Shown: in pieces, positions 13,473 to 64,000 of the stretch
Layout: the number at the start of each line of letters is the position of its first letter
Numbering within the stretch: the stretch's first letter is position 1
From: Bryoerythrophyllum caledonicum
Lineage: Eukaryota; Streptophyta; Bryopsida; Pottiales; Pottiaceae
NCBI GenBank assembly: GCA_963971425.1
Contig: OZ020521.1
Span: forward strand, 250,501-314,500
DNA length: 64,000 bases
Direction of reading: 5' to 3'
The notes under the pieces: generated by a model
What the model saw: only the letters and a program-made list of their open reading frames with translations
Told to the model about the DNA's origin: nothing
Database searches by the model: none
Translations under genes and position numbers: made by a program

Positions 13473-13518
13473 AAAAAAAAACAAAAAAATAGAAGAAGAA
13501 CGCCGGTCTCCAGAGGAG
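13473..13518 (-). mobile_element. 46-bp micro-insertion of the LINE 3' end
   Basis: Within LINE B, a 46-bp segment absent from copy A is flanked by GACATGTGTC (13463-13472) and GACATGTATC (13519-13528), a 10-bp duplication with one difference. On the - strand it reads as the last part of the LINE (GGAGACCGGCGTTCTTCTTC, one arm of the terminal hairpin plus TTC repeats) followed by a T-rich tail. It is an extremely 5'-truncated retrotransposition of the same LINE family into itself. Confidence 0.7.
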
Positions 13519-18200: not shown

Positions 18201-19095
18201 GGTCGTCGGTACTGTAGCCTTCCTTGGGGTCGGCTTGCTTCGTGAACTCGTCCCCGAGGATGTCGTCGTTCCGCTCCGCTGTCTTGACGGTTCCGCTACT
18301 GAAAGAGTAGGTACGCTGCCACTCCGGAATACCCCATGTCTCAGGGTGAGCTCGTATGGTGCCGTCGTACTGGTTGTCCGGTGCACCGAGTAACTCCACC
18401 ACCAGCTTCGCCTCCTTCGCACCCCACGCAACGTCGAGAAGCCCTCGGCAGCCCATGTTGGTGAGGTAGTGTTCGAGGACGGCCTTCTCCTCCGGGTCTG
18501 TCGGTATGATCGGGACTACCCGTTGAACCGCCGGTTGCGTCGTCGTACCACAAGTAGTCCGGGAAGGTTCTCCTTCCGCCATTTCTGCAGAGATTTCTCA
18601 CAGTCTCTCCAGTATCACCTGCACGCACTGACCTACCACACACTCTCTCTACTGGAAACACTTTCGTTCTAGGGAAATCAAGAAGGCAAGACGCAAGAGC
18701 GAAGGGGAAAGAGTAAGCCAAGAAGTGTGGGGCATCAGACCTAACTTCTTGCTTTAATACTCTCGGTGGTGTACGGACGGCCGTTACAATCATAACAGCG
18801 GTTCCGGCTCCTAACCAACACCGGATCCGGGTTCCTTCCGGCTCCGGCTTACTTCCGGTTCCGGATGCTTCTGGCAGGTTCCGGATGTTGTGTTCTCTCC
18901 GGTTCCGGATCCCTTGGATTTATGGTAATTCCTAAACGGTTTTAAGGATCTTTGGTACCCCTAGGTTGTCTTATTTCTTATTTATCTATTCTATAGTTCA
19001 AACTTATGATTCTAACATTCTAACACTAAATTTTTTTTTGTTTTTGCCAGATTTTTAGGTTAACTTCCGGAACCTTGTGGGAACGGATTCCCACA
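15262..19095 (-). mobile_element. Unclassified 3.8-kb insertion in LINE B, rich in TTCCGGAA words
   Basis: Sequence absent from LINE copy A and different in texture from its surroundings. It is GC-rich and dense in TTCCGG/CCGGAA (dozens of copies in the flanks of its reading frame, 15270-16530 and 18800-19080). The right edge on the - strand starts with the palindrome TGTGGGAATCCGTTCCCACA. The left edge is near 15262. I did not find a convincing target duplication, so the class is open. A - strand frame of about 660 codons (next entry), with no recognisable integrase or polymerase, suggests a non-autonomous LTR-type element or a captured gene. If it is a retroelement, treat it as a fossil. 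Confidence 0.45.
16594..18582 (-). pseudogene. Gag-like or plant-transposon-type protein of the 3.8-kb insertion
   Basis: A long - strand frame starting MAEGEPSRTT, about 660 codons, with roughly one break. Its N-terminal 230 residues form a compact domain containing the conserved-looking WGIPEWQRTYSFSSGT, RFLNPIFHPEKPK and LPSYLTHLYAQHDVLT. I recall similar blocks in numerous unnamed, repeat-borne proteins of bryophytes ('putative plant transposon protein' type), but I cannot verify this. Then come an acidic linker, a Pro/Ser/Arg-rich region (RKRSRSVPRES), a coiled coil of about 130 residues (ARLREVVDGIRRELEVERVV onward, rich in Arg/Glu/Leu heptads), and a Pro/Ser/Thr-rich tail. There is no catalytic motif. 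The architecture of a globular N-domain plus coiled coil fits a capsid-like or RNA-binding element protein. The function is not known. Confidence 0.45.
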
Positions 19096-20109
19096 AAAGT
19101 GAGAGGGTGGAGGAGGTGGATGGGCATATTTTGATATGGGGTTGAAGCATTTTAGTGCCTCATTAATTAGATTGTTAGGGAGGTAAGGGAATTTTTGTTT
19201 TATTGTGTTGTTTGAGGGGGGTACGGTTTGACTATGTAAAAATTCGTATAATTCTTCGTGTATTGAATTTCTGGGGTTTATGATACTTGGATTATCTTCA
19301 AGGAATTTTGTATAAGGGTGTGTGGTGTGGATGTGTCTTTCGGGTGGGTTTTGTAAGTTTGATAGGGTTCGTAATAATGTGTTAGTCCATGTAATTATAT
19401 TCGGGTTTTGTAAATTTAGAAGACTGTTACATTCGTCTAAGTTTGGGTGGGTGGTGATTACTAGGGCATAGAAAATATGTGTTGGTGGGTGTGTATTTTT
19501 TTGTTGTATGTATTGGGCAATATTTAGATGTGTTGTGATGTGTAGTTGATGTAATATATGTGTGGGTTTGAAAAGTGGTGAAAATGTCTGTGCAATGTGT
19601 TTATATTCCGGTTGTAGTTTTATGGTATTTGGTATGAAGTAAATTTTGGCGTTTTTTTTTTATGTGTTGTGGGATGTCTTTTTAGTATATTGGGCATGGG
19701 TCCCGGATTGGTTTCTATATCTCCACATAGTAGTAGTAGGATTTTATAGTGTGAAGGTTTGTTGTGTTGTTTTTGGTTTATTGGTTTATGTGTATATTGT
19801 TGGTGTTTTTTTGTTTTTTTGTTTTTATTTTTTGTGTTTTTATTTGTGTACGTGTGTGTTTTTGTATGTGGGTTTTGTTGTGGTCTTTTTTTTCCCTTGG
19901 CTCTAAGTGTTATTTTTGGATGTGCATTTCTTTTTGAGTTTGTGTGGGCTTGTTTATAGTTTTTTTGGTGTGTTTTTGTGTGTATTTTTGTGGTATTTTG
20001 TAAGTGGGTTTTTGTTCGCAAGTGTGGAGGTGCGAGTGTGTGTATATGTATATGTGTGTATATATTATGTGCCTTTTTGGGCTTTTGTGTGTGTATTTGG
20101 TTGTGTGTT

Positions 20110-26003: not shown

Positions 26004-29000
26004 TCATTCCAGCTGCACGCGCTCCAACTCGCTGTTCACTTCGTCGAACTGCCACCATCCACCCCAACACCAAATCCAAGAACACGGGTCAGCCTCACCT
26101 CGACTCAGTCACACCCCCCTACAACCACACACTACACCACCTCCACAACCAAACCAAAGCGTCCTCCGACCAGACTCCAAGCACCCAACGCTCCTTCAAA
26201 CTTGCAATCGCCACAGACCACCAAACCAGACCGTACCTTCTGGATGTGACGGATGAAGTAATCTCCAAATCGCTTCGTCACTTTCGTGTCCGCAATATGT
26301 ACCATGTCCTGCAAAAATACGGGGCCACTCACCACGTCAGCACCACAAACCACATCGCCCACATGCCACTCCACACTCACCCTCTCACAAACTGCCACTT
26401 CCAAGCTGTCCACACTCACGTCGTCTATGTAAAAATCCACATCTGCATTCGACAGAACGCTGCCATCGTTGTTGATCACGTGCGTCTTGTGCTTATATGT
26501 CAGCAACGCCATCCTGACCACCACCCACATACATCCATCAGTACCCAATCCGACCATCCCAAGCCCACAAACATTATCCCCCCTACTGCTTCCACAAAAA
26601 CCACGTCGCCAAGACACATGTCCTCCCGCAAAACCCAGCTTCCAGTCCATCCACTTCACAGGAACCACTCACTCATCTTCCCCATCCCATGAATGCTCAC
26701 GCTTTCACCACCAGAGCGGGGGCCACCACGGGTCAAGCATACCTCAGAGTCGGCTCGTCCACGTCCATGAAAGATGCCAGCTTCGCAATCGAGATCGTCG
26801 TGTACAGCTTCAGGAAGCTCCGGATGCTCGACAGCAGCTGCTGCTGCCGGACCTCCGACAAAAACAGCTTCAGCTGTAACCTGTATGCGTCCTGTCCAAC
26901 CCCACCATCGTCAACCCACCCTTCAGTCAAACCCAACCCACACCCCCACGCCACCAACAAACCAACAAACCCACCAAAAAATGCCCACACAACCACTGCG
27001 CTCGTCATTCCTACCTGATTGAAGTTCACCGGCGGCTCGTCGTAGTTCGGCGGCGACGGAGTGATGAACTTCGGGCACGCGTACGAAAACAACTCGTCGA
27101 ACATCGACTCGTCGCTGCGCTGCATTCGCAGCATCTTCTCCGCATACTTCTCCCGCAACTGGTTGTTCACATTCTCCTCCACCAGCTTCGGGTGCGGGCA
27201 CAGCGAAAGGCAGATCGCCAGCAGCGCATACATCTGCTCGTTCTTCTTCAAAATCTGATCATACTGGGACGACCGCTGGTGGTACTGCTTCGTCTTGAAG
27301 ATGTACAGCAGAACCTGGTTGAACGACTTGATGGCGTCCATGTACCTGCCCCACAATACGCACCATGCAGGTCAGCGGCCCATCCTCCTACAGCACCGGC
27401 AAAGCACGCGCCACCACATCTGCCACGCTCAGAGCAGCAGAAAATCACACTGGCCGTACCTTCGCAGCATCAGGTTCGCAAAACCATAGTAGTAGATCGT
27501 CGTGATCTGGCACCCGATCACGGTGTTGAACACCCCCGGCTGGTTGATGTCGATCGGCGACAGCGCACGCAGCCCGCTCTGATAATCGCCCAACAGGCAG
27601 TGCACCCGCAGCAGGCCCACGATACTGAAGTACCCCAACACCTTCAGCACGTTCGTCCCGCCGTGGTAGTCGTACCCGTCCGTCGCCGTGAACGTCACGT
27701 TGCCCTCCTTCTCCTCCTCCAGGATTTGCAGAATCATCGACTTCTCGATCAACGCCTGCAGGTAGTTCAACACTCCCACCACGTTCCACACCTGTTGCAA
27801 CACACCCACCCATCAGAACCGACCACCAATCCAGCCCGCCACAAAACCCGCCACCGCCACCGCCACAAACGCACACTCGCTGCTCGCCGCCAGCAATGCA
27901 GACCAGCGCCAACAGACCCCACCAGCCATGCACAAAACCTAAACCTATCGCTTCTGACTGCAGCGCTTCTGCCAAGGCCAACATGGCGCACGCACGGCGA
28001 CACACTACCACTCCCCTCAACGACAGCGTCGCACCAGAGCACGCTCAGAAATGGAGGTGCTCGCAAACCAGCCCGGCCCACCTACAAACTCCCAGGGCTG
28101 CCCTTTCCTCATCATTGCTGAAACAGAGTGCATTCCCAGGAGTCCGAGGCTCCATCGCAGCAGAGGTATTCCTAAATTGCGGGGCCCACTACTCACACCC
28201 GCCCTACCATTGCGCAGAATTGACGGAAACCAGACCCCTCTCAATCGATGCGTGCACCCAGAACCATGTCACCACCGACGCTGAGCACTCTCACCACCTG
28301 ACCCGCCCTCCACCCTATCCTTCCACGGGTTAGGGCTTCGGAGATCCCTGAAAAGGCTTTGCAAATGCAACGCCACCAGGGTGCTGCTTCACTGGTGCTC
28401 TGCACGGAAGCCGGCCACCAGGGAACCGGGGGATCGACCACTGGCCGGAGCAGTCCGCTGTCCAGCGGAGCACGAACTCATCGTCCAAAGGTTCTCGACC
28501 CCACTCAACCGCAGCACCCATCGCGGCTCCCTGGATTGCAATCCCTCCCGCATTGCGCATGCTCCAGCAGGGCGAGATGTCCAGCAGGAATCTCAGGACG
28601 GGCCCGCACCTCGCGCCTGGGGCACCCGCTCGGGCATGCTATTCGACAGCAGGAACGCGGGCAACCCTAAACCTAAAACGCGAATGCGCCCTAAACCTAA
28701 AATGCACATGCGATCCACCGGCCAAAACAGGCACAATTCGGACGCGTTCCGTACCTCGTCAATCTGGCGAAGCACCGCCAGCTCGTGGTCCGTCTTCTGC
28801 TTCAGCTTGGCGCGGTACTGGCAGAACGACTGGAACTGGTAGATGAACTCGTCCACCATGTCCCACAGCCACTGGTTCGGCAGCTGCATGTTCACGTTGC
28901 CGTGCAGGATCACCTGGAACAGATTGCAGTAGTTGTCCCACGAGTCGCACCGCTGCTCCAGCGTCGGCTGCAGCCGCGCGTAGACGTGCCGGAACCACAT

Positions 29001-29327
29001 CTCCTTGTACAGCAGGCAGAACACGTGGTCGTTCTCGACGTAGGGCGCGATCACGTCGACGTGCGGCCAGTTGGACTGCTTGAACAGGCGCTCCGACAGC
29101 TTCTGGAAGCTGCCCTCGTACATCTGGTGGATCTCGTAGACGTTCTTCTCGCGGATGTGGCGGTACAGGTACACCACGAACGTCTTGACGACGTCCGGCA
29201 CGTACGTGGACGTGTCGAAGCCGGGCTCGGGCGGCAGCAGGTCGCGGAAGCCGTCGCGGAACTCCGGACGATCGTCGTAGGAGTCATCGTAGCCGCCGCC
29301 ATAGTCCCGCGCGGCGTCGTAGGCCAT
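26004..29327 (-). CDS. EIF3L: Eukaryotic translation initiation factor 3 subunit L
   Basis: Subunit l of the eIF3 complex, which binds the 40S ribosome in the cytoplasm and supports mRNA recruitment. Seven exons on the - strand: 29327-28755, 27791-27460, 27345-27015, 26891-26752, 26513-26420, 26308-26237 and 26048-26004. All introns are GT-AG, phases agree, and the total is 1,587 bp (528 residues), the family's usual length. Diagnostic blocks include NQWLWDMVDEFIYQFQSFCQ, TATDGYDYHGGTNVLKVLGY, FANLMLRRY, KNEQMYALLAICLSLCP, ELFSYACPKFITPS, then the PCI-domain region QDAYRLQLKLFLSEV, VDEPTLR, NADVDFYID, HIADTK and GDYFIRHI. The start MAYDAARDYGG is the first Met after an upstream region lacking family similarity; an in-frame Met further up (29528) lies in the leader. 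The gene looks intact and under normal constraint. Exons are GC-rich. Intron 1 is the longest, at 963 bp. Confidence 0.95.
28664..28706. repeat. Telomere-like tandem words in eIF3L intron 1
   Basis: CCCTAAACCTAAAA occurs twice, separated by CGCGAATGCG. This is a short interstitial stretch of plant-telomere-like sequence close to the donor of intron 1. It may be regulatory, like intronic telo-boxes of other plant genes, or a chance remnant. Confidence 0.5.
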
Positions 29328-29480
29328 GGCGGGCGAGGGCGAAGGGAAAGCGGACACTACAAAGACACCAGACAGACAGACCGTCGTCAACCCTAAAAGT
29401 ATCGGCCTGCTGGTGCAAAAGGTTGGAAGGGGAAGAACAACAGCTTCGGCCTCCGAAGACGCGAGGGTGGGCGTCAATAT
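29328..29480 (-). promoter_or_regulatory. eIF3L leader/promoter with a telo-box
   Basis: On the - strand, TTTAGGGTT lies at 29397-29389, about 60 bp upstream of the start codon. The telo-box (AAACCCTAA) is a known plant promoter or leader element of translation-machinery genes, so its place here fits the gene. Two more CCCTAAACCTAAAA words lie in intron 1 at about 28665-28705. The transcription start cannot be fixed from the sequence. Confidence 0.5.
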
Positions 29481-29920
29481 AGTGGGTGCCGCTCCGAAAG
29501 GTTCACCTGTTCCCACTCTCCAGTCCATTCATGTTCATGGGAATCAGCTGACGACTACGATTCTGATCCACTTTCCCGAATATAGAGGACGAGGTGCTGA
29601 TTCATTGGTCAGTTTTGTACATGAGTTTGTCCTACAAATTTGGATAATTCTCATGTGATGCCTAGGTTATATCCATGTAATGCTTATGTAATACCCGTTG
29701 TGTTTGAATCATTGTGATTTGATGAAATTAATCATCCGGCATGGCGTGTCCACGATGGACAGATGTGTACGGAAGCAAAAAGCTTATGTCGTGTGTAAAG
29801 TGTTTATTGTGGGTTAGGTAGCTTCCTATGGTGTCAATTTTAACATTCTTCTTTCAAATTTCTACTGTAGATGGGCATTACAAAATGCTTTGTGTGAGTC
29901 CAGTTTCTACCTAAATCTAA

Positions 29921-39298: not shown

Positions 39299-40082
39299 CT
39301 TGGATGGGACATGACCTCTCTTTTATTTCTTGAAAGTGAGTAAAAATACTTCTTTTTTACTTTAGAGACCACCAAGCTTTTGCATACCTAATAATGATTT
39401 CAGTTGAGAGACCACCAAATTGTTCCATGTCTAATAGCAATTAAAGTAAAGAATGAAACATAAAGCATTATTATGTAAATAAAAAAGACTACCCTTGAGA
39501 GGTGGAAGTAGTTTCATAGTACTAAACCTATGTCTGGTGGGCATCAATTTAGTAAAAAATGTGAACTTTAGTTTTTTTAATAAGCTCGGAAATATTCAAC
39601 AATGTTCAATTTTTTGTTTGCACAAATTTTTAGAAATCATTTCTACTTCAAAAACCAACATCTCTAGTTATTTAAATTTGTATTTGATTAATAACTAGGT
39701 ACAATTTTATTTTTTGTTTTAACAAACTTTTACAGGTTGTTCCTTACACAACAAGAAGGGTCCTACCGTGAATTAAGAAGGAGGCCGTTGTGAATAAAGT
39801 GTATGTTTGTTCCACCACTAAATTGATGCCCACCGGACATAGGTTTAGTACTATGAAACTACTTCCACTTCTCAAGGGTAGTCTTTTTTATTTACATGAT
39901 AATTCTTTTTGTTTCATTATTTACTTTGATTGCTGTTAGACATAGAATAGTTTGGTGGTCTCTCGACCAAAATCCTTATTAGATATGCAAAAGCTTAGTG
40001 GTCTTTGAACTTAAAAAAAGGTACTTTCACTCACTTTCAAGAAATAAAAGAGAGGTCATGTTCTAGCGTGTATCTAAGTTGT
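39299..40082. repeat. Inverted repeat with arms of about 250 bp containing LINE 3' sequence
   Basis: The left arm (39299-39551) and the right arm (39826-40082) are reverse complements with modest divergence, separated by about 275 bp. The inner part of each arm matches the LINE 3' untranslated region ('ggtggaagtagtttcatagtactaaacctatgtc' type sequence); the outer part ('tctcttttatttcttgaaagtgagt') is non-LINE. A further decayed piece of the LINE 3' end lies at 39750-39825. A transcript through it would fold into a long hairpin. Confidence 0.65.
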
Positions 40083-41670: not shown

Positions 41671-42544
41671 ATGCAATACAATACATACAAAAATGTTGAT
41701 ATTGTGGATTTTTAAGAGTTCACTCCTTCAAAAAAAGGTGAGACTCGTGAATTAGTTTTTTAATGGCCTTTGATTACCTAGATACAATAGTATTCACAAA
41801 AATAATTTGATCTAATTTTAAGGCCCAAATGATTCTTTTTTGTCTAGGGATACTTTTCAACAACTTTACCATAGTATTACTGTATTTGTACATGTTTGGA
41901 TGGAAGCCAAAAGAAGAAGAAGAACTCTGGTCCCCATGAGGAGGCCACAGTGAATAAAGCGTCTATTTGATCCACTAGTGAACCAATGTCCATCAGACAT
42001 AGGTTTAGTAGTCTGGAACTACTCCCCCCTTTTGAGAATAGACACTACGTAACTTGTAACCGTTAAGCAGTAACTAGTAACAAGGGACTGTGGACCAATA
42101 AGAGCCACAGGGCTCAGTTCCAAGACATGATTAGTGGAGGTTGATTGTGTGCTTTTGAGAGGTTTTTAGGGGGTACTATTAAGTTTGGGTAGGGATTCGT
42201 TATTTTCATTTTTTTGTTTGTATAGGAGAATGGACATCGCATGTTGGATAGCAATGGCGTTAATTATTGTGAATATCTTTTTAATTGGGTTAATAGAAAT
42301 ATTGAATGATTTTTTGAGGCTTTTCAAAAAGGGGATAAAAGTAGTAGCTTTAGCTCCAGCGGTGATGACAATAAGGGGGTCAACTTTCCATCCAAGAGCT
42401 GTAATGTCATTAATAAGTGGTTAATATTTATTAATTTTGTTTTCAATAGCTTCTTGGAAAAATCTATCATGTCAGTATTTGAATTTGATCAATTAGATAG
42501 TTTGTGTTAATGTGGTCCGGTGGATGGTTTAGGTACGATAGTCT

Positions 42545-49981: not shown

Positions 49982-50061
49982 AGTCTTTTGACACATAGTA
50001 TTTCTAGTTTGAATTTGGCATTATACTAGCATCTATGGGTTTCATACGTAAAAGAAGAAGA

Positions 50062-50088
50062 ACGCCGGTTCCCGAAGGGAACCGGCGT
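50062..50088 (-). other. Terminal 3' hairpin of LINE A
   Basis: ACGCCGGTTCCC - GAA - GGGAACCGGCGT: a perfect 12-bp stem with a 3-nt loop, 11 bases from the 3' end and followed on the - strand by TTCTTCTTCTTTT. Copies B and C keep the stem with paired changes. It probably serves as the recognition site for the element's own reverse transcriptase. Confidence 0.75.
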
Positions 50089-50300
50089 GAATAAAGTGTC
50101 TGTTCGTTCCATTGCAAAGACCATGCCCACCGGACAAGGAATTAGGGAACTGGAACTACTTCCCCATTTCGAGGGTAGACACTATGTGACGAGTAGCCAG
50201 AAACCAACCAACAACGACCAACCACGACCAAACTAATCTAAACAACAAAAAGCAAAACCACACAGGCAGCCAACCATGAAGAGACGAGGTGGCAAAGTTT

Positions 50301-53300
50301 CTAAGGGGGGTCTTGCGTATCAGGGAGGACTTGGTTTTTTTCGATTTTGCGTTTATGTAGTAAAATAGACATGGCATGTTGAATAGCGATGGTGTTGATG
50401 TTTTTAAAGGTAGTTTTAATTGTATCAATGGGTATCTTGAAGGTATCTTCAAGAGTTTTCATAGATAGAATAAAGGTGGTGGCACGAGCGCCGGATGTGA
50501 TAACAATAAGGGGGTCCACTTTCCAACCGAGGGCAATGATGTCGTTTATGAGGGGTTGGTATTTATCTATTTTGTTTTGTATTGTTTCCGGGGAGAATCT
50601 ATCGTTGCAATATGTAAACTCGATGAATTGAATGGTGTAGTCTTGGTTGATGTTCACGGGTGGTGGGTCATTGTATGGTAAACCTTTGACACAAAGAATG
50701 TCCGGTTTGAGCCTAGCGTTGCACTGACATCTTTGGGTCATACATGAGCATGGAAGTAGCCATGGGGGGACCGTGTTTTCTTGCGGATTGTTATTAAAAG
50801 TGCCGGCGTTCATTAGTATGAAACATCTCGATTTTTTGTAGGAGGTGATTAGTTTTCGGATTTCCCATACCGCTTTATTATGTCTTTTGATAATTAGAGA
50901 GTGAATGTGGTGGTTTTGGCATTTGAGTAGTACATGAAGCCATGTGTCGGGGTCCGTTGAGGGGCATATGGGGCATGTTATGGATGGAAATCTTTCTATT
51001 CCAAAGAAGAGTTGTTTGCGAGCGTTTCCCATATACTGACCCGTACGGAATTTGATGAGGCATGTTATTTGTGAGTCTGAGATGATGGGGTTTTTCCAAA
51101 AGTTTGTAGAGAGTTCATTATCTATGTCGTTATTGTTAGTCCGTTTTTCTATGTTAGGAATATTTTCTGAGATTGTGTCCAGGTTGTTATAGAGGTCTTG
51201 TTTTTTGAGATATTTGCCCAGAAATCTGATTGGGCCTTTGTCGGGGGTATCTTCTTTGGAAGGCCAATCTTCTTTTTGAAAGTAGTATGGGGTGGCATGG
51301 GCATGTTCGTGAGGGTCTTTGGCGTTTTTGTGTGTTTTTTCTCGGCCTTCTTTTGCAAGCTTGTCTGCTTGTTCGTTGCCATCAATGTTGGCATGGGCTC
51401 TTACTTTGTGAAGGGTTGTGATTTGTGTACGGTTTTGTAACATTTGTACCATTGATGTTAATATGGTTTGGTCGGGGTGGCTATTGTGAAGGGTAGGGTG
51501 TGTTATTTGAGTATTAAGTAGGTAGAGTGCGTTTATACAATCGGTGAATATATGTGCGGGTTCATCATTGTATTTTGTTGTGATGATTTGTAGTGTTTTG
51601 TGAATGGCCATTAGTTCTGCTCTGAGTATATTTTGCAGTCCATGGAGTCTTTTGGCTAGCATGAGTTCTTTGATAGAGTTGTAGATGCCATAGCCAGCTT
51701 TTTCTCTTCTCCAAGATCCTGGACTAATTTGTTCTGGTGGTTTAAAGGAGCCATCGGTGTAGTAACTATATGCAGGGTTAAATTTTGGTGTGGTGTGATT
51801 TGGATAGTTTGGGAGGGGGGGGCGATGTGACCAGGTAGTTTAGTGTATAGTTGATATAGTTTAGTTTTGACCAATTTTTACTACGGTTAACAGGGGTTTG
51901 TGGGGGTGTCGGTGAGGTCAGTTTTGTGTATAATTTTTGTATATTTAAATTTTCTGCTATGGAGGTAAGTTCGGCAAGTTGCTCAAGGGTGCCAAGGGTT
52001 TGATTTTGATGGTGGACACATAGTATTTGTAGTGTAGATGGCTCGATTCGGGGTTTGTTTAGCTCGGGTGGGATGGTAGGTTCTTCGTATGGTATTGAGT
52101 CTGCTTCGAATATTGCAATGATATGGGAGTCTGGGAATGGGTTTGAGTGTTGGTTGTTGTTTTGGTACCACTTGTTGTTTGGTATGATGATGATCGTGTT
52201 AGTATTAATTGGATCATTTTTGGCGGCGAGTCAAGCCCAGTGTAGTGCTTGTTCTATCTCTTTCTCATTGTGGGGGTGAGCTATCCCTTTACCGGTCCAT
52301 TTGTAGTCAAAGGCTTTTCCCAAGGATCCGAATATTTTGTCTCTTTCAAAGGGTGAGTAAAATTTTTTTAGTTTTGTGGAGCAGGTGACTGGAGAGGAAA
52401 AATATGATTGTTCTATGTGAAAGTTTGAGATTAGTGAGTCTAAAATGGGTGTGGGTATTGTGTATTGCGCATTTTTGAGGGGGTCGTTTTTTGGTATTCA
52501 GTATCTATACCTTTGGTAGAGCCAGATTAGTTCGGTTTCAAAGGGTTGGGTCTTTGGTTGGATGTATGTAGGAGTTTGTAGTTTTGTGTTGTATTGATTC
52601 CATAACCAATGAAGTCTAGTGACGGGGATAGTGTGTAAATGTCGGCCATTTTCTTCGTAAAGATGTGCTTGGTTATTGTCAATTTTGATTGTGTCTGAGA
52701 ATGCAAGGATGTCATTTTCGGGGTTGCATTTTGATGTATGTATTTTTAGGAGTGGAATAATTATTGGTGGTGTTATGGATCTTGAGTCTGGGGATTGTTC
52801 GTGGGGGTGGTGAGCTAGGATGACATCTGAGTAAATTTTGTTTTGAGTTTTTTGGTAGTATTGTTTTAGTTTTTCAATGTTGTGTGTGGAGGTGTTGGTG
52901 TTATGTCGAGGGAAAATGGCTCTTTGGGGGAGCCATTTGTTGTATGTGTTGTCATTATGAATGCCATTGGCACAAATATTTTGTGTAGGTATTTTGTATA
53001 TTATTTGTATCTTTGTGTTGGATGTGTTTATGGTGTATAATGTTACTAATGGGGTAGTTGGTAGGACTTTTGGGGATGAATGTTGGAGGTCGGGGGTGAT
53101 GTGGGTGAGGAGGGTGGGGGGGTAGATTGGTGGGGGGATGTTTCTTGGGGTGATGTTATTGTTGATTGTGATGAATGGTTCTAGAAGTATATGGGAGTAT
53201 GGGTGTATATTGCAAGGAGGAGGGCATGTGGTGGGACATGTTGGGTGGCAAAAGAGTTGTTTGGCAATGTTTAGAGCACTTTTTAGTAATTTGGATGGGG

Positions 53301-56300
53301 TGAGGTGGTATGTTTTGAAGTCCTCATTGTTCATGATGTGTGTGCCATTGGGTAGAGTAATTTGGCTTAGTTTAAAGATATTTTTTGAGAGGAGTTTTTG
53401 TAGAAGTTTTTGGGAGAGGTGGGTATTTATTGTGTTGTGGTTCAATGTCTCTTGTTGCCATATCATTTCTAGTGATGTAGGGTTAATGAGGAAGTTTGGG
53501 AGCGTACTTTTAAGGTGGATTTTAGCTATGTGTTTTAATAGGAAGAATGTTCGTGTTATAGGAGATCTTAAGCAGTCAGTTTTTTTAATTCTAGGTATGT
53601 TTTCAGCACCTCCATATTGGGCAAGGACATAATGGGTGAGTCCGTTGTATATTTTTCCAAGTCTACCTTTATCATTTAAGGCATTTTGTAGTTGTTCACC
53701 TATACAACGGAGATATGCGTTTTTAAGGGAGAAAGCTTCTAGCCCAAATAGGTTGTGTGGGAGTTGGGTAATTGCATTTGACATGCATTTTGGTAATCCA
53801 CATATTGTTTTTTGTATGGCTATTATTTTTTTGTCCAGTTTTTTGATGGCAGGCATAGAATATGGTACACCGTAGAAACTATATGCCACGCCTGGGCGTA
53901 TTACAGTATCCACCATTTTTATTTTTTGTTTCATGGTGGCCGGACATGTTGTTAGTTCATTGCATTGTTTGATAAGTTTTGTTGTTGTAGTGTGGATTTG
54001 GATTTTCCATTTTAGAGATGGGACAAGATTGGTACCTAGGTATATGTATGGTTCGTTTTGATGTAGTATAGGGATTGGTTGATTGCGATAACTGATGTTA
54101 GAAGCTTGCATTAATGCTTTGAAAGTGGTAGGGTTTAGTTTGGATTTATTTGGGCATCTTGTAGCAGCACATTTTGGGACTCCTACGTCCATACCGGTCC
54201 ATTTACAATATCTATCAATTTTATCTAGTTGTGTTTGAATAGATTTAATTTTGTTGGTTATGGTGGCTAGGTCATCCGCGTATGCGGCAGAGTTTATTGT
54301 GACTTGTGATGTGCCAAAAGTGTATCCATTGTAGCCTTGTTCTAGCCATCTGAGTAGTGGTTCTAGGAATATAATGAATAGGTATGGGCTAAGGGTATCT
54401 CCTTGTATAGTCCCCCTTTGAATGGGTATGGGTTTTGTTTTCCCGAAGTGTTCTCCGATACAGCAGGTGGACGATTGAGAGTATATGTTTCCTACAAGAG
54501 TAGTTGCATCTTTTGGGAATCCAAGGTCCATCATTATTGCTAGTAGTCTAGCATGGTCTATTGAGCCAAAGGCATTTTTGAAGTCAACGTGTAGTATGTA
54601 TATATCTTGGTTTGAAAATCTTGCGTCTTCTAGTGCGGCTATTATAGTTTGTATTTGTCGTGCGGTACTTCTTTCTGCTCTAAAACCTTCTTGGCTATCG
54701 TGTAGGATTTTGAATTTTTCACCGTATGAAGATAGTATAGAGGTGAATGTACTAGTGAAGAGTTTATATATTGTGTTAGCTAGTGCAATTGGTCTATGGT
54801 TAGGTAGAATAGATGGGTCTCCTTTTTTGTATAGTAGAATTGTTGTACTTGATTTCCAAGACATTGGTATTTGTTTTTGTTTGTAGCATTGAGAGAAGAA
54901 TAGGAATAATAGTCTATGAAATCTTGGGGGCATGTTTTTGAGTATAGAGTTAGGTATGCAGTCTGGGCCTGGGGCTTTGTTGTTACCAAGGTTCCTGAGA
55001 CATGTGTCGTATGTGGCTATATTAAAGTATTTATGTAGTGGGATTTCTGGTTCGCCGCGTTTGTCAAGAGTAAATCCATCAAGGTCATGCCATGGGTATT
55101 GGCGTACAACGCATGTGCATTCATTTGGGTGTTGTGGTTGATAGTTACATGTTGGTACTGTTGGCCTATTACTTTTTGTTTGTTGGTTGAATATTTCATT
55201 CGCGATGTCTTCAGGGCTCGTTAGAATATTATTGTATTGGTTTGTGATACAGTCCATTGGCGGTGATTCAAGGTTTTTAAAGACTTTTCTGTTGATTTTT
55301 TTGGGGCTAATTTCATATAGTTGTCTGTATTTTGAGATGGCTTTCTTAATGTTATCTTTGGCGTATGTTGAGGTTATTTTACGGGCTTGTGTGTTGGCAT
55401 TTTTTGCAATTAGCGCAATGTCATTTATCCATGTATCGTGGGGTAGGTCCGGTGGTGGTGGAGTGGGGATTTGGGTGTGTTGCAGGGTTAATAGTTCGTT
55501 GCATATGGGGTGATTACGCCATTGGGGGTTGTTTTTTACGATTCTAATGGTTTTCCTTATAATATGGTATGTAGTGAGGTGTTGTTTCCAAGTTTTTGAA
55601 AGTTTGCGGGGGAGATACCCGCCTTGTTGAGAGGTTCTGTTTGTCATAATAGGTATTGGGTGAGCTTTACAAGTTTGTTCTATTGTGCCAGAGATTTTAT
55701 TGATGAGTGTGTCTAGGACGTGGCATGCTTCTTGCCACTGTATTTGTGATAGTTGACTATTGTTTTCGAGGGTGTTTGTGAGAGAATCTATTTGCATGGA
55801 ATTTTCTTCAAAAAATTTTGTGTTGAATTTTTCTATGTTATCTTTTGGTATAGGGTTGAGTATTCGTATTGTGTCATTATTTGGTATTGTGGGAGTTTTG
55901 TTGATTAATGTGTTGTCTGGTATGTGCAGTCGTATGGGCGAGTGGTCCGAGTTCAGAGTATCATCAATGTTTGTTGTAGAGGTGTATTGTGTATTATTGT
56001 TTGTATTTATATAAAAACCGTCTATTAGACTCCAATGGCTGTGGTTGTATCTACCTTGTCTAGAGAATTGTGTGTCAGTGTGGATATAAGTGAAGTTTAG
56101 GTTTTCTGTGAAATGACGCCATTGATAGTCAATGTTTTGAGGAGGGTTGCTGTGATTTCCATTTTGGCGACCTATTAGTGCTATGTCTCTGTTGAAGTCT
56201 CCACATAGTATATATGTGTGATTAGGGTTATTATTAATTTGAGAAGTAATAGTATTTTGTATGTCTATGATATATCTAGTATCTTCGGGGTGGGATGGCA

Positions 56301-57837
56301 TATACATGTGGAAGATTAACCAAGGTTGTAGTGGGTGGTTAGTGATTTTGATTATTTGGATGTAAGGTGATATATGCATGGGGCTAGGGATTTTGTTGAT
56401 GTTGCCCGGGAAGGCATATTTTTTGTGTATTAATGTGAGGAGTCCACCCCGACCTGGTGTGTATGGTCTTCTTTGTTGGATGCATCTAGTGAGTGTAAGT
56501 GTGTTGTTAAAGACGAGTTTATAGTCTTGAAATATATTTTGTATATATTTTGTAGATTTTGTGGCGGTAAGTTTTGTTTCCTGTACAACTATGAGGGCCG
56601 GTGGTGTGTCTGTGTTTGTGACTAAATTTTGTAGACTAGGAAGGACGGTGTTTAGTGAGGAGGCATTCCATGTGATTATGTATGTATCTTCTTGGTTTAT
56701 ATTGTTGTTTTGGTTTTGTGGAGGGATGTCGGGAGGTGGTGGTGGGGGACGGGTGTATTCTGAAATAGGGTCTAAGCATTTTAATAATTCATTTATGAGG
56801 TTGTTGGGAAGGTACGGGAATTTTAGTTTTATTGTTTCAATAGAGGGAGGTATGTTTTGACTATGTAGAAAATCGTATAGGTTTTTATGTATTGAGGTTT
56901 CATGGTTTATGATATTTTGGTTGTCTTCAAGAAACTTTATATAGGGGTGCGTGATGTGTATGTGACGTTCTGGGGGGTTTTCTAGGTTTATTAGAGTTTG
57001 TAGTAGTGTGTTGGTCCATGTGATTGTGTTTGAGTTTTGTGGGTTTAGGAGATAGTTGCATTCATCTATATGTGGATGTGTAGTGACTATTAGGGCATAT
57101 AGGATGTGGGGTGGTGGGTGTGTATTTTTTTGTTGTATGTATTGGGCAATGTTTGGGTGTGTAGTGTTTTGTATGTGGTGTAATGTATGTGTATTTTTGA
57201 AGAAGGGTGCGAAGGTTTTTGCAATGTGTTTATATTCCGGTTGGAATTTTATGGTATTCGGTATGAAGTATAATTTGGCATTTTTCTTATGTGATGTAGG
57301 GTGTCTTTTTAGTATATTAGGCATGGGTCCCGGGTTGGTCTCTATGTCTCCGCTTAAAAGTAGTAGTAGCTTTATGTGCTTGGGATTAGTGGTATGTTTT
57401 CTAGTAATTCCTTTTTGTGATATTGTTTGGTGTTTTCTATTGGTCTTAGAGTTGTATTTTTTTGGGATTTTATGTACCCCTTTGTTCTAGGGGGTTTTTG
57501 GATTTATATTTGTAGTTATGGCGAGCTTAGGAATATTGGTTGTATATCGGCTTTTTGGTGTTTTAGTTTTTATTTCTATATTATAGCATGGGATTATGTC
57601 TTGTCTTGTGGTTATGGTGGTAGTTTTGTTTTTGTTGTGCATGTTATGTGTGGTTGTGTTTTTACGTGTTTTTTTGTTTTTATTTGCGTTTGTATTTTTC
57701 GATGTTTTTTGTTTATGTTTGTATTTTTGTGTTTGTTTTTTCATGTTTATGTTATGGTGTAGCTTTTTGTTTATATTTGTTTGTTGTTTTTTTAATGTTT
57801 TGTGTATAGTTGTATATGTGCGTGTATTTATGCGCAA
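50301..57837 (-). pseudogene. LINE A ORF2: 2A peptide, APE, RT, RNase H, CCHC, RLE
   Basis: About 2,510 codons. A basic leader starts at 57837 (Lys/Thr/Asn-rich), then LLLLLSGDIETNPGP, a 2A-like skipping motif, at about 57360-57325. APE endonuclease occupies residues about 210-450 after the 2A (TYIITWNASSLN, VVQETKLTATK, GDFNRDIALIGRQN, SDHSPIR). The reverse transcriptase spans about 760-1060 (DFKNAFGSIDH, GTIQGDTLSPYLF, AAYADDLAT). RNase H is at about 51760-51340 (YYTDGSF, RAELMAIHKTL, FTDC, DGNEQADKLAKEG). The CCHC knuckle C-x2-C-x9-H-x4-C is followed by RHN near 50880-50980. The RLE endonuclease is at about 50720-50450 (LKPDILCV, IEFTYCNDRF, NKIDKYQPL, ITSGARATT). Defects: TAG at 57489-57487, TGA at 52497-52495 and 52233-52231, and a frameshift in the G8 run near 51815-51822. 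Both TGA codons correspond to Arg codons in copy B, as expected from CpG decay. Confidence 0.88.
57325..57360 (-). other. 2A-like ribosome-skipping peptide site in ORF2
   Basis: The - strand encodes LLSGDIETNPGP followed by Met-Pro. D-(V/I)-E-x-N-P-G-P is the 2A consensus, where ribosomes release the chain after Gly and resume at Pro. Copy B keeps the same motif (LCGDIETNPGP near 19700), so it is a family trait. It would separate the short basic leader from the main polyprotein. 2A motifs are known near the N-terminus of several LINE groups, such as trypanosome L1Tc. Confidence 0.85.
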
Positions 57838-58335
57838 GTACTTGTGTGTGTATTTATGATTTTTTGTCCTTTTTGTTTGTGTTTTTGTATACGTGTTTTT
57901 TGGAATCCTTAAGTATGTGGTTTTTTGTGTCTTTGTTTGGGAATGTGTTATGGAATTGTATTTATGTTTGTGTGTTTGTGTGTATGTGTTTATATTGTTT
58001 TTTGTACTTATTATTTGGTATTCGTAATTGGTATAGTAGGTGTAGTAGTTGGGGTAGTAGTCCTTATGGTGTATGTATTTTGTATGTAGAATATAGTATT
58101 TAGTATTTGTTTGGTATATGGTGAGGTATTTGGGTATTATGTAGGCGTCCTCGTAGTGTAGTGTGTATTTTTTATTTGTATTAAAAACCGTATTTGTATA
58201 TAGTTTTGAAGTATGTAAGGATTTCTATGTGTATTGTACTAGTGAGGTAGTTGTATTTTCTACTAGTAGGATACAATATGTGTAGGGTATTGAATACTAA
58301 TTGGTAACTATGTATTACCTTGAGGTCTTTGAACT

Positions 58336-59970
58336 TTACATGTTTGGCGACCTATCTTCAAGTCTTGGGGGCATTCTTCCTTTCATGGCTTGGAATGCAA
58401 GTCTTGTGGCATTCATGGCTTCCTCTATCTTGTCTAGGTGTTCCATCAAGGAGTTGTGGAGGGTGTCGGTGTACTTCTTGCTTTCTTCTATCACCTTCTT
58501 GTTGTTCTCTTCCAAGGCCTCCTTCAACTCTTTCTTGGTGATGGCGGTCGGGGTGTCTTGTATCTTGAAGGTTGCCACGGTGTTGACCATGGCGGCATTG
58601 ATGTCGTTGAAGCCAAATGCGTTGATTTGTTCCTCCGTGGGGGGTTGTGTGCCTTCCAAGCTCTTCCAATGTGGAGTGAAGTCTACGAAGTTGTCACCAA
58701 TGTCGAAGTGTTTTCTAACAAATTGCTTGTATACTATTGGGTTAGCACATTCCACGTTAGCTTTGCCATTGTGCCTACCTCCAATTTCCTTATGGAACCA
58801 TATGGACTTAACATTATTCACTCCCATGATTTTTTGGATAGCACTAGTGACATCTTGCACATTCATGAGAAGGGGTAATGGAGAGAGGGTGAGGGATATT
58901 GCATCTTTCCTTGCCTTAGTCTCGGGGGTCATACGACCATCATTGTATGTCTTCCTTGCCTTGATGACTTCGTGGTGGGTGGTGATGTGTTGAAGTTGGA
59001 TCTTGGAGGCTTGTATAGGGGTGGTGGCGGCAATGAAGGCGTGGGGATCTCCTTCTCCCTTGGTCACTCCCGTGATCTCATAGTCTTGGCTACGCTTGAA
59101 GCTGTTGATGAGGATGTCCTTGAAGAGTTGGTGTGCGGAAATACCTATCAATGTGTCACTACGCACTTGCACGGAGAGGTTAGAAGCATTAGCAATTTGG
59201 GGGTAAGCTTCACATACTTTTCCAATGGTGTTTTGGTTGTTTATGTTAAGAATGAAAGGTCTAATTCCTTTTAACAACATGAGAGCATCGGTTCCGGGGT
59301 TTAATAAGTGAAGTTTGAACATGCCGGTCCACACTCCCTTTTGCCCACCTCTTTTAACACTATGACAATGTATATAGATTGGGTCCATAACTCCTTCTCC
59401 AAGTTTAATGTCCATGTTATCTAGTCTATGTGTTATCATTTTATGAACATCATCATGCAATAGAATGGAGGGAGGGGGTTCAAAGTGGATAACCACGTGG
59501 AAACCATGTGCCAAACCTGTGGCACCGTTGACTTTGGTGTGTTGGGGAATTTGTGTGATGTTGTAGTGTTGCTCCTCGCTTCCTGCTCGTGCAATGGGAT
59601 AGTAGAGCTGGGGAATCCTTGGATAGGCCACCTTTGACATCTTGAACTCTTTGGCCTCGTGTTCCAGGAACCCTCTAGTCACCATGTCTTCCACCTTTTC
59701 GTCATATAGGAGTTCTTCTAGCCCTTCCTCGATTGCAGGGCGCTCCATGTCTTCAAATCCTAGCCAAAACTTTAGAGACATGGTCATTGCGTTAAGGGGA
59801 GGGGATTGGCTTACCTCTTCCTGTGTGCTCCTACTCTTCTTGGTGTTGCCATTTTTCTCCTCTGTGTTCTTTCTTATTCCTTTCTCTCTCCAATTTATTG
59901 TTGAACTTGTCCCCACTCCATCAATGTCCATGTTTTCCTCGAACCTAAGGTTTCGTTTTGTGATAGACAT
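58336..59970 (-). CDS. LINE A ORF1 protein, RRM-like region plus C-terminal coiled coil
   Basis: A 544-residue frame, uninterrupted, upstream of ORF2 on the same strand and inside the element's target duplications, hence ORF1 by position. The N-terminal 60 residues are charged and Ser/Thr-rich (KNTEEKNGNTKKSRSTQEE). A globular part follows (MSLKFWLGFEDMERPAIEEG onward). Around residues 370-450 the run beginning LPLLMNVQDVTSAIQKIMG, with a strand near KANVECANPIVYKQFVRKHF, has the alternating pattern of an RRM-like fold. Residues about 478-530 form a heptad-rich coiled coil (KKELKEALEENNKKVIEESK). LINE ORF1 proteins usually bind RNA and multimerise through such parts. I recognise no closer relative. 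There is no CCHC knuckle. Confidence 0.7.
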   Translation of the reverse strand: MSITKRNLRFEENMDIDGVGTSSTINWREKGIRKNTEEKNGNTKKSRSTQEEVSQSPPLNAMTMSLKFWLGFEDMERPAIEEGLEELLYDEKVEDMVTRGFLEHEAKEFKMSKVAYPRIPQLYYPIARAGSEEQHYNITQIPQHTKVNGATGLAHGFHVVIHFEPPPSILLHDDVHKMITHRLDNMDIKLGEGVMDPIYIHCHSVKRGGQKGVWTGMFKLHLLNPGTDALMLLKGIRPFILNINNQNTIGKVCEAYPQIANASNLSVQVRSDTLIGISAHQLFKDILINSFKRSQDYEITGVTKGEGDPHAFIAATTPIQASKIQLQHITTHHEVIKARKTYNDGRMTPETKARKDAISLTLSPLPLLMNVQDVTSAIQKIMGVNNVKSIWFHKEIGGRHNGKANVECANPIVYKQFVRKHFDIGDNFVDFTPHWKSLEGTQPPTEEQINAFGFNDINAAMVNTVATFKIQDTPTAITKKELKEALEENNKKVIEESKKYTDTLHNSLMEHLDKIEEAMNATRLAFQAMKGRMPPRLEDRSPNM

Positions 59971-60098
59971 ATTATTATCACTACTTGTTGTCTTATTTAT
60001 CTTGCTTTTAGAATTGTTAACAAAAAGGAAAGAAGGTGAGCAACGTACCTTTTGAGGGGGCTTATCTTTAGTCTTGTATGGGAGGATTTGGCTCTCCT

Positions 60099-60492
60099 CA
60101 GTAGGTCGCTAGATCGCAACGGTGGGTCGTTGGCTCCTCGTAGTGGGTCGCTGGCTCCTCACACTGGGTCGATGTTTCCTCACAGTGGGTCGCTCGCTCC
60201 TCGTAGTGGGTCGCTGACTCCCCGCAGTGGGTCGCTGGCTCCTCGCAGTGGGTCGCTGACTCCCTGCAGCGGGTCGCTGACTCCTCGCAGTGGGTCGCTG
60301 GCTCCTCTCAATGGTCGTTGGCTCCTCGCAGTGGGTCGTTGGTTCTCCGGCAGCAGGTCGCTGTTCGCTGCTATGGTTCTCAGGCTCTCGGCAGTAGGTC
60401 GCAAAATTTTTTTAGTAGTAGTCGTTGGCTCTTCTGCAGTAGATCGTGGCTCCCTACAGTGGTTCGTTGGCTCTTGGCAGTAGGTCGCTGGT
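60099..60492 (-). repeat. 21-bp tandem array in the LINE A leader
   Basis: About 17 units built on GTGGGTCGCTGGCTCCTCGCA (+ strand), best ordered at 60120-60310 and looser toward 60490. It lies about 130 bp upstream of ORF1. Its translation as Ser-Gly-Ser-Leu-Ala-Pro-Arg repeats on the + strand is an antisense artefact. Tandem units in a LINE leader recall promoter monomers of mouse L1. Confidence 0.8.
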
Positions 60493-61009
60493 GAGAGAGC
60501 CTGGCACGATTCTCAGGCACGAACGAACCTGGCACGGCGTGGTATGTTCCAGATACGATGTAGTGCTCTCAGTCTCGTGCAGGGGTTCGTGTAGCGTTGC
60601 TGGGCTGGCTGGGATCTCTTGCCGGTTCTCTCTCCTTGTGTGCTAGTCTTCTCCGAGGTCCTCTCTTTGCTGTGTTGGTCTTGCTCTTCTATGGTCTTGA
60701 GTTGGTGCTGCGTGTTGTGTACTTCTTCCTGATCTCTAGTGAACACTGTTCTTCTTCCCACCATCTTTTGGAGTTGATGATGGTTGTTGAATGCCTTCGA
60801 CGCTTGTCTGGATCTCCTGATCGGATTATGGCTGTTGAGTTCTCTACTGATCTTCTGTCGTCACAGTTCGGGTGCGGGCTCCTGTTCCTCGAGTTGGTTT
60901 CTTGTTCTTGTGTTGTTGATGATCTTGCGCCTTGTGCTTGGATAAGTGCTTGAGTTGTTACGTCTTGGTCTGTGCACCTTCTTGTCAAGTCGAGGATATA
61001 TGAGGCTTC

Positions 61010-61235
61010 GGGCCAAAGTCTGTATACCTGAGTCGATGCACCTTCCTTTCGGGTCTGAGGAGTCTTGTTTTCGATGTCCGAGTTGGAAGACGGTACACCT
61101 GAGTCAATGCACCTTCTGAACTGGCCTGAGGAGTCTTGTTATGATGTCCGAGTTGGAGGTCGGTACACCTGAGTCGATGCACCTTCCGAGCGGGACTGAG
61201 GAGTCTTGTTTCGATGTCAGGGTTGGAGGCTTCTC
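61010..61235 (-). repeat. Second tandem array (period about 71 bp) in the LINE A leader
   Basis: Three units, each containing GTACACCTGAGTCGATGCACC-type sequence (starting near 61021, 61092 and 61163) and a following 'gaggagtcttgtt'. It lies farther upstream than the 21-bp array. Confidence 0.75.
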
Positions 61236-62469
61236 TCGGGGTCGAAATTTCCTTGTTAAAGTCATTGGTCTTTCAAGTTCAGTTCTCCGGATCGCGAGCT
61301 CTGGGATCTAACGTCAGGTTAACTTGTGTTGCAGGTGAAGAGGCGGCCCTGCTCAGCTCCCTTCTGTCCACTTCCCTACTGTCCACTTCTCCATGTTGTT
61401 GATGTTGACTGCTGCTGTGTCTCCGAGTGAGCTGGTCCAGCAGTGCTTTCTTGACTTCTAGTGTCTCTGCGGGGGCTCTTCAGCGCAGGTGTTCTTCGCA
61501 GTGTTGGCGCTGATCTTCTCTCGGACTTAATTCAAGTGTAGGTGCAGGTCCGGAATGTGGGCTTGTGTACTTGGTCTTCCTTCTGCATACCTGTAGTTTT
61601 CCAGAGAAATTTGTGCAGCGCTTCCGCGCACTACTATAGATGTGTAACTTTCTATGTGTGTGCTAAGGGTTTATGTGATCTAGGGTTAGGTCAGCTTAGT
61701 AGTTATAGTCTAGTATTACCACTGTCAATGTTCTAATCTACTTATTAGGTTAAATCACTAAGAGACTTGTATTGCAAAGAGTGCTTTATCGAAGGTGTGT
61801 GGGCTATAGATCTTGTGTGTTAATGCAAGGATCTTAAAAGCAATTGTTTGAAAAACTTACTACGGTAGGTGATACTTGTTGTTTGTTGCTGCTGTTGTGT
61901 CGTTCTCCAGGGTTGTGTACTTTGTTACTGCCTGTGTGTTGTTGTTGCCTACTGCTGCTGAAGTGTTGTTGCTTCCTTCTGCTGCTGGTGTGATTGTTTG
62001 CCAAAGTTGTGGATGCGCTGATTGTTGCTTGTAAGGCTTGTCTTTCAATAATAAGGATGAATATCTGGATTTTGGGGGGTGCAACGACTAGTAAGGAGAT
62101 CTGCAGATCTGGTATCTAACGCTCAGATTTGGGTGGATCTTGTTTGTAAGAGGTTAACTCAATCTATGTGCCAACACTTGCTCCCATGCTTCTCAGTTAA
62201 CGCACACTATAGATCTAAGCCTCATTCACTCAAAAAACCCCAGATCTGCAAGTATGTGAGCTCTTTTCCAACACTATCTGCGTCCCAGACTCTCCTTTTC
62301 GAAACTCAAAAACTTGTGGTGAGCTCTCACCAAGGTGAGCCACCTCTTGGTGCCCACAATCTTTGTTGTTCGAAACTAGGTCACACCTCCCCTCACCGGA
62401 AATTACGGAGCTCACTCAGTCTTCATGCCTGCTCTCTCATGTGGCAATCAGATCTCTCGTTGTCTCACC

Positions 62470-62537
62470 TCCGGAGTTCCATACTCCATGCTTGCTATCA
62501 AAAAACTAGACAAAAAAATCATAACCATGCAAAAATA
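62470..62537 (-). repeat. Antisense ORF2 fragment at the 5' end of LINE A
   Basis: The first 65-70 bases of LINE A, read on the - strand, resemble the + strand of ORF2 at about 53812-53880 (shared 'atttttttgtc', 'agttttttgat', 'gcatggagtatgg' against 'gcatagaatatgg'), about 80 percent by eye. A short piece of the LINE in opposite orientation therefore sits exactly at the 5' junction. Confidence 0.6.
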
Positions 62538-62550
62538 GGTTTCATACGTA

Positions 62551-63192
62551 CATGTAAGTAGCCATGAAAGGACTGTATTTTCTTGTGGTTTGTTGTTGAA
62601 GGTTCCGATGTTCATAAGTATGAAGCACCATGATTTATTGGAGGATATTATTAATTTACAGATTTTCCATACCGCTTTGTTATGTCTTTTAATGATTAGA
62701 GAGTGTATGTGATGGTTTTGGCATTTGAAGAGTACATGTAGCCATGTGTCTAGATTTGTGGATGGGCATATTATGGATGGAAAGCACTCTATTCCAAAGA
62801 ATAATTGTTTGCGGGCATTCCCCATGTATTGTCTAGTACAAAATTTGATAAGGCATGTTTTTTGTGAATCTGTAATTGTGGGATTTTTCCAGAAATTTGC
62901 GGAGAGTTCATTGTCAATGTCTTTATTGCCTGTCCATTTGTCTCTGTTAGGAAAATTGTCTGAGATTATGTCTAGGTTGTTAATTTAATCTTATTTATTG
63001 AGGTATTTATCTAAGAGTCTAATGGGACCTTTGTCCGGGGTGTCTTCTATAGAAGGCCAACTTTCTCTTTGGAGGTAGTATGGGGTAATGTGGGCATGTT
63101 CATGCGTATGGTTGGTCTTTCAATGGAATTTATCTAGTCCCTCTTTTGCTAGTTTATCCGCTTGCTCATTTCTTTCTATGTTGATATGTGCT
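62551..63192 (-). pseudogene. LINE copy C fragment: RNase H end to CCHC knuckle
   Basis: On the - strand this matches copy A 51390-50730. It shows MGNARKQLFFGIE, the CCHC region with H-x4-C in HVLFKC, and the IIKRHNKAVW block. The upstream part (62830-63190) is recognisable by nucleotide similarity but has scattered small indels and stops. It is non-functional: it holds no polymerase, and the rest of its 3' part lies 12.5 kb away. Confidence 0.75.
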
Positions 63193-64000
63193 CCAACGAC
63201 GCTAGAATGCGAGCAGTGAGTAGTGAGCAATGAGCAATGAGCCTTTTTTTGGTAGGAAATATACTAAAATTGGGAATATTCATATAATATTACTTTAACT
63301 AAACTAATAATAGTAACTTTTTAAACCTATAACCGTGGACTGTGAATTGTCTTTAGTAATAGTAATGTTCTAGATGGCCTCTTACATGACTATACTTTTA
63401 GTCATTTGATTAATATAAGATTAGATTTAGCACCAACTTCGATACCAAAATTCCTCTCTCCTCTTTTAAAGTGGATGATTTTTATTGGATGAAAAATATT
63501 ATGGATGTATAGAATTATAGATAAACAGATTCTGTGGATGAACAAAGTTTAGGCATGAACAAAGTTTATGGATGTGCATCGTTCAATTGACCCCTTACAA
63601 ATTACCTTGATCTTTCTAAAAATTGAAGTGCCATCCGTACAAGATCTCTATGATTAGGAAAATGGCATTATCATACGGAGTGATTTTGGTTGTTCAACCC
63701 AGTAGTTAATTTTGCATGCTCTTTAGTGTTGTTTCATACACCCACTCTTTCAATAAGATACTATCTCATATGCTAAAAAACAACACACATGAACCTCCTC
63801 CCCCAAGTTGTTGTACTCATCGTCAATATGATAATGAAGTCCTCTAATGTTTATTGTAGCAACAACATTTAAGTTAAACAGTAGTCTAGAAAGCACCACC
63901 TATAGTCTTGTGATGCCAGCCTCTCCGCAATTTGCAAACAAAATTCGTCAATTCTACATCCGTCATCTTGCAACTTTCATAATATTATTAATAAATATAA
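63193..64000. other. AT-rich right end of the window
   Basis: No gene or element recognised. It begins with 'gagcagtgagtagtgagca'-type short repeats (63209-63243), then plain AT-rich sequence to the edge. Confidence 0.4.

Follow-up and report, generated by a model that had tools for sequence, protein, structure and literature searches.

We report that a 64,000-nucleotide stretch of Bryoerythrophyllum caledonicum (assembly GCA_963971425.1, contig OZ020521.1, positions 250,501 to 314,500 of the forward strand; this whole stretch is called the window, and its numbering is used throughout) carries at 50051-62537, on the minus strand, a long interspersed nuclear element (LINE) that encodes two endonucleases, an apurinic-like endonuclease (APE) upstream of the reverse transcriptase (RT) and a restriction-like endonuclease (RLE) downstream of it, together with an RNase H and a domain related to the methyltransferase PCIF1. 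We take the element to be a new and large variant of the Dualen/RandI type of LINE, with a probability of about 0.85, and we propose a mechanism for it that is based on a polyprotein.

Dualen/RandI elements are LINEs that combine an APE with a PD-(D/E)XK-like endonuclease (PMC3636483) and have an RNase H (PMC4640811), and they are the sole double-endonuclease LINE group named in the cited parts of these two papers. Such LINEs serve as evidence for the replacement of RLE by APE in LINE evolution, according to the relevant section of PMC4640811.

Two endonucleases in a single LINE

The second open reading frame (ORF2) of the element encodes the APE (55930-56676), the RT (54031-54819), the PCIF1-related domain (51907-52809), the RNase H (51342-51770) and the RLE with its CCHC finger (50523-51101), all on the minus strand. 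The RT, whose YADD motif lies at 54271-54282, is matched by Pfam RVT_1 (1.5e-28) and has R2 as its best solved relative, and the RNase H, which is read in a later frame than the RT, is matched by Pfam RNase_H (2.5e-13). The APE falls slightly under the Pfam cut-offs, with Exo_endo_phos at 5.1e-5 and 23.6 bits (cut-off 24.5) and Exo_endo_phos_2 at 4.7e-5 and 23.7 bits (cut-off 27.4); its QETK, GDFN and SDH motifs were all located, and a custom APE profile matches the relatives of the element.

The RLE was recognised by profile matches. Profile-profile comparison of 16 double-endonuclease LINEs with 17 LINEs that have the RLE only gave a probability of 99.4 and an E value of 4.9e-22 over 190 columns, with the CCHC, RHN, RPDI, E and K..KY motifs in register. 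The double-endonuclease RLE profile matches the window copy and 16 relatives over at least 161 of its 185 positions; outside this set the matches stop between positions 60 and 132, with the exception of P0067 (167), and in APE-bearing LINEs outside the clade described below it is chiefly the CCHC stretch that is matched. Both endonucleases of the element are real. Moreover, all five domains occur in one chain and in the same order in six database proteins (P0018, P0021, P0025, P0026, P0034 and, with a partial APE, P0033). The original prediction, which had assigned an APE, RT, RNase H and RLE to ORF2 from their motifs, is thereby confirmed as regards the domains. ORF2, however, is not intact: in the window copy the frame is interrupted by three in-frame stop codons (TAG at 57487-57489 and TGA at 52498-52500 and 52231-52233) and by a frameshift near 51780-51840, and for about 60 residues before the PCIF1-like domain it differs from the frame of the sibling copy L040.

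An unrooted RT tree was built from 72 domains out of the 111 rows of a first tree, with labels set by hand and with no named Dualen sequence among them; the 39 rows dropped by hand included near-duplicates, rows lacking a clear label and several long branches. The 25 rows labelled as double-endonuclease lie on one side of a branch that is supported at 100/99 (bootstrap/Shimodaira-Hasegawa-like approximate likelihood ratio test) and found in 100% of 200 bootstrap trees, and 16 RLE rows form a separate clade (100/99). The window RT pairs with P0001 (98/87) and, together with P0002 and P0003, forms a group supported at 100/100. The tree needs two changes for the 28 APE rows and three for the 19 rows labelled RLE; among the rows so labelled, P0055 is without an RLE match, and in P0037 and P0039 the match is confined to the surroundings of the CCHC finger. 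Membership of Dualen/RandI is likely on the anatomy and the clade.

A PCIF1-related domain within the polyprotein

PCIF1 is the cap-specific adenosine N6-methyltransferase (CAPAM), which recognises the capped first adenosine of mRNA and has the catalytic motif NPPF. The domain at 51907-52809 was detected by a custom hidden Markov model, by a profile match to the PDB and by a fold match, and a sibling copy gives a Pfam PCIF1 match of 42.5 bits; the PCIF1-type methyltransferase fold is thus present, and the domain is under purifying selection. At the catalytic place the window copy reads IAHPHN and L040 has HPYN in place of HPHN. An intact NPPF is found in none of the 23 aligned members, the closest being the SPPF of P0024. 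No PCIF1-related domain in a double-endonuclease LINE was found in print, among the matches listed for open-licence PMC papers.

Two relatives carry further candidate or recognisable domains near this one. In P0024, alone among the 23 members, residues 1175-1212 ahead of the PCIF1-like domain give a Chromo match of 20.9 bits, under the cut-off of 25.1. We regard this chromodomain as a weak lead only; in a PDB sequence search of the segment, four unrelated chains ranked above CBX6 (E 0.3). P0028, a related LINE protein, combines an RT and a PCIF1-like domain with a C5 cytosine DNA methyltransferase.

Boundaries, leader, copies and insertion sites

An exact 13-mer, GGTTTCATACGTA, is present at both 50038-50050, on the 3' side of the element, and 62538-62550, on its 5' side, and forms a target-site duplication, so that the insertion is 50051-62537 on the minus strand. 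Both the 13-bp duplications and this span had been proposed in the original prediction, which also called the insertion a complete 12.5-kb LINE; the span stands, but family sequence begins only after its first 111 nt (62427-62537). The original prediction had also missed the PCIF1-related domain, the breaks in ORF2, this 5' extra sequence and the self-insertion described below. The element body, of about 12,375 bp, is 50051-62426, and nine copies other than that of the window (c1) were fetched, giving 10 joined copies. Three of the nine are full-length and uninterrupted (c2, 99.7%; c6, 97.2%; c10, 96.4%), c3 and c9 reach both ends with an insert inside, and c4, c5, c7 and c8 are shortened, rearranged or not followed to the end. 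Beyond 62426 most other copies have just TGGAGA in common with the window copy, and c2 has 19 nt of its 111-nt extra. When this extra was compared with the genome (40 of 1169 candidates scored), 39 of the 40 scored matches lay inside its first 69 nt, the inverted ORF2 scrap within it (62469-62535) matched many places, the window was the only match to the entire 111 nt and no source locus was found; the extra may come from a parent locus, where it lay upstream and from which it was taken along with the element. By eye, the 5' junctions of L003, L006 and L010 have about 10-20 G/A-rich nucleotides, of differing sequence, between the duplication and the common TGGAGA start.

The 5' leader (60109-62426, minus strand) contains tandem repeats of 21 nt (60122-60342) and 70 nt (61018-61229). 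A genome search with it (40 of 1472 candidates scored) returned 57 matches. Most of the leader is present, at 92-100% identity, in 13 copies including that of the window; it is continuous in ten of them and split in two in the other three. Because other full-length copies have the leader, the repeats and ORF1, these are regular parts of the family, and a check for leader and ORF1 in other genomic copies thus came out in favour of the predicted arrangement. The predicted open ORF1 is also there, with 590 open codons at 58336-60108 (minus strand). It has 11 relatives at 40-49% identity and no known domain: a Pfam scan of the window ORF1 returned no family at E up to 10, and scans of six relatives returned none or matches at E 0.02 or weaker, every one under its cut-off. 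The AlphaFold model of ORF1 is poor, with a mean predicted local distance difference test (pLDDT) score of 45.8.

Between ORF1 and the enzymes lies a low-complexity spacer (57490-58351, minus strand) in the -1 frame. It overlaps ORF1 at one end and leads into a 2A (StopGo) motif at the other, and is open in c3 and c7 and interrupted in the window copy. The ORF2 frame of c3, c5, c6 and c7 opens about 12 nt ahead of the ORF1 end in the -1 frame, a relation also seen in c4. In c5, c6 and c7 the first ATG comes at codon 205 of this frame, and c3 has ATGs at codons 56 and 122. The first 330 codons of the frame are free of stops in c3 and c7, with a stop at 323 in c5 and at 248 in c6. No classic slippery site for a programmed frameshift between ORF1 and ORF2 was seen by eye. 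The motif itself, GDIETNPGP at 57325-57351 (minus strand), agrees with the original reading of a 2A peptide: it satisfies the pattern (D/G/C/N)(V/I)ExNPGP given in the relevant part of PMC12846837 and was found in 8 joined copies out of 10, c5 and c8 being the exceptions. Similar NPGP-type motifs precede the APE in the relatives P0004-P0008, P0010 and P0013, twice each in P0008 and P0010, and some of them deviate from the canonical E. The putative 2A peptide would free the enzyme polyprotein from whatever is translated before it. The c4 subfamily has the same order, and c4 itself (G000:C3) has a very long in-frame run of Asn codons upstream of the 2A motif.

At its 3' end the element has a short (TTC)n tail (50051-50061) preceded by a terminal 12-bp RNA hairpin (50062-50088, both on the minus strand), and the last 60 nt fold at a z score of -5.67 against shuffles. 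The stem is retained, with altered letters, in two of the three older window copies inspected (3818 and 41914), the third (39777) being unclear; the hairpin of c3 is expanded and weaker, and Rfam found nothing in the window at the gathering score.

The four duplications read by eye, in c1, c3, c6 and c10, all differ, which points to no single fixed target; none was recognised by eye in c2 or c9. Insertion falls often in older copies of the element family. Family DNA lies within 40 nt of the 5' junction (of the 3' junction in L009) in 7 of the 13 copies with readable flanks (L001, L007, L009, L010, L013, L014 and L021). The other six, L002-L006 and L008, have no adjoining family DNA, that of L006 being about 310 nt off. 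Eight looser relatives were kept out of this count, two of which (L016 and L019) have family DNA within about 35 nt. In the window, the 5' flank (62551-63193) is an older family copy, 76% identical over 652 positions to element positions 11,047-11,698. BLAST found no match between the 3' flank and the element; with the flanks joined over one duplication, the first 51 nt of the 3' flank extend the alignment of the 5' flank. In a test against 500 shuffles this 51-nt piece outscored every one, though narrowly (27, with 25 as the highest shuffled score), and the 3' flank reaches 33 at a different place in the element, so that it is the weaker evidence of the two.

Some further observations concern the family and the window. 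The differences between c1 and c2 (G000:C9:432387) are concentrated at the ends, in the first 1.8 kb and the final 1.4 kb; the roughly 9 kb in between have just two, despite an ORF2 that is broken in both. A second, older and broken family copy, 76-83% identical to the element and split by other sequence, occupies 3818-19843 on the minus strand, and more 3' fragments lie at 41914-42501 and 39777-39881. Elsewhere, an open frame at 28593-29528 (minus strand) contains a stretch that may resemble a conserved eukaryotic splicing or translation factor.

Alternatives, proposed mechanism and known elements

Several points weigh against the reading of a Dualen/RandI-type LINE with a polyprotein. ORF2 is broken in the window copy, whose set of open frames is identical to that of c2, and is uninterrupted in none of the 10 joined copies, as far as fetched. 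The element was compared with no named Dualen sequence, its RT relatives all being unnamed, and APE and RLE are both in view in just 8 of the 25 clade rows (P0018, P0021, P0025, P0026, P0033, P0034, P0123 and the window read-through); the others, mostly partial, end before one endonuclease or lack a match, and so show one or neither. P0037, which has an APE, an RT and an RNase H and matches the RLE at the CCHC only, falls outside the clade. The first, loosely labelled tree required 21 changes for the 'dual' state, since it took matches to the CCHC alone for RLE, and was not used for grouping. The model of the PCIF1-like domain is just fair (mean pLDDT 65.6, predicted template modelling score 0.55), and with HPHN in place of NPPF the domain may not methylate anything. 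As the break between RT and RNase H makes their continuity invisible in the window copy by itself, one could suppose that the two endonucleases come from different insertions, an APE-type LINE adjoining an unrelated R2-type element; we consider this barely credible, since a single open frame spans RT to RNase H in c6, everything is enclosed by a single pair of duplications, and both full-length copies and the six single-chain relatives were found. It is also improbable, though less so, that the element represents a new lineage outside Dualen/RandI in which RLE and APE were combined independently. The lack of a named Dualen sequence in the tree would allow this, as would the PCIF1-like domain, the 2A and the ORF1 in a separate frame, none of which is mentioned for Dualen in the cited parts of PMC8226300, PMC4640811 and PMC3636483, but the rows with both endonucleases form one clade and Dualen is the sole such group named in the last two of these.

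Two narrower questions concern the PCIF1-like domain and the insertion sites. That the domain is an active N6-adenosine methyltransferase marking the element's own cap is suggested by its fold and constraint and by the catalytic place of some members (SPPF in P0024; NPEY in P0028, P0030, P0034 and P0124), and is nonetheless unlikely, as the remaining 18 of 23, the window family included, have neither. Self-insertion might be a mere effect of family abundance without targeting, and this explanation we hold to be only somewhat less probable than its opposite. The family makes up about 7.9 kb, or 16%, of the 50 kb of the window outside the element, and for 7 self-insertions out of 13 the p value is 0.002 if this share is assumed and rises to 0.02 for a share of 25% and to 0.06 for 30%, but is 1e-6 for 5% and 1e-4 for 10%; whether there is an excess hinges on the family's genome-wide share, the 16% being a figure for the window only.

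For the Dualen/RandI-type element we propose that one RNA would yield an ORF1 protein and a separate APE-RT-PCIF1-like-RNase H-RLE polyprotein, the latter made via the frame overlapping the ORF1 end and released by a putative 2A activity. Insertion would proceed by target-primed reverse transcription, in which DNA is nicked by an endonuclease, the RT would bind the element RNA at its 3' hairpin and (TTC)n tail and copy it, and RNase H would then remove the template; the APE is perhaps the likelier first-strand cutter and the RLE the likelier second-strand cutter. The PCIF1-like domain may bind the RNA of its own element at the capped 5' end and so favour full-length copies, with methylation kept in some lineages only. 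Cap recognition would aid end-to-end copying of a 12-kb element, and the domain points to a specific, testable explanation for the complete copying of elements of this length. On the broadest and quite speculative form of this proposal, which we think doubtful as a whole, the entire double-endonuclease lineage was built around a captured cap methyltransferase, and the polyprotein would recognise the first, capped nucleotide of the element RNA, methylating it in some lineages; by selecting complete templates and by self-targeted insertion into old copies, a 12-kb LINE would stay full length, hidden among its own remains.

The domain shares with PCIF1/CAPAM its methyltransferase fold and profile match and differs in sitting within a retrotransposon polyprotein, in lacking an intact NPPF in all 23 members and in that the listed Pfam matches include no WW family. 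APE-type LINEs reportedly carry 2A peptides already, going by a title (Odon 2013); the virus-like motif is common to both, whereas the window element has an RLE too. The Zepp LINEs of green algae also insert, nested, into their own copies, but Zepp belongs to the L1 elements and forms arrays of mostly 5'-truncated copies, as described in part of PMC8226300, whereas the present family has several full-length copies. SymbioLINE-Dnmt elements of dinoflagellates are likewise LINEs that acquired a methyltransferase, in their case a C5-DNA methyltransferase in ORF1 rather than a PCIF1-like domain within ORF2 (relevant part of PMC5890265).

With R2/NeSL-type LINEs the element shares an RLE with CCHC, RHN, PD, E and K..KY motifs, while those LINEs have neither APE nor PCIF1-like domain and form a separate RT clade. 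The element works like R2 at its RLE end and is not an R2 member, as R2 has the RLE only and an APE is present here. Dualen is not known to have a single fixed target, and its 2005 description is said to include a cysteine protease, which is not known to define the group; a Pfam scan of four frames of the window gave no peptidase family with an E value of 10 or less. With Dualen/RandI of Chlamydomonas and relatives the element shares an APE upstream of the RT, an RLE downstream and an RNase H, and to the question of how APE replaced RLE our dataset adds six single-chain double-endonuclease relatives and a supported clade.

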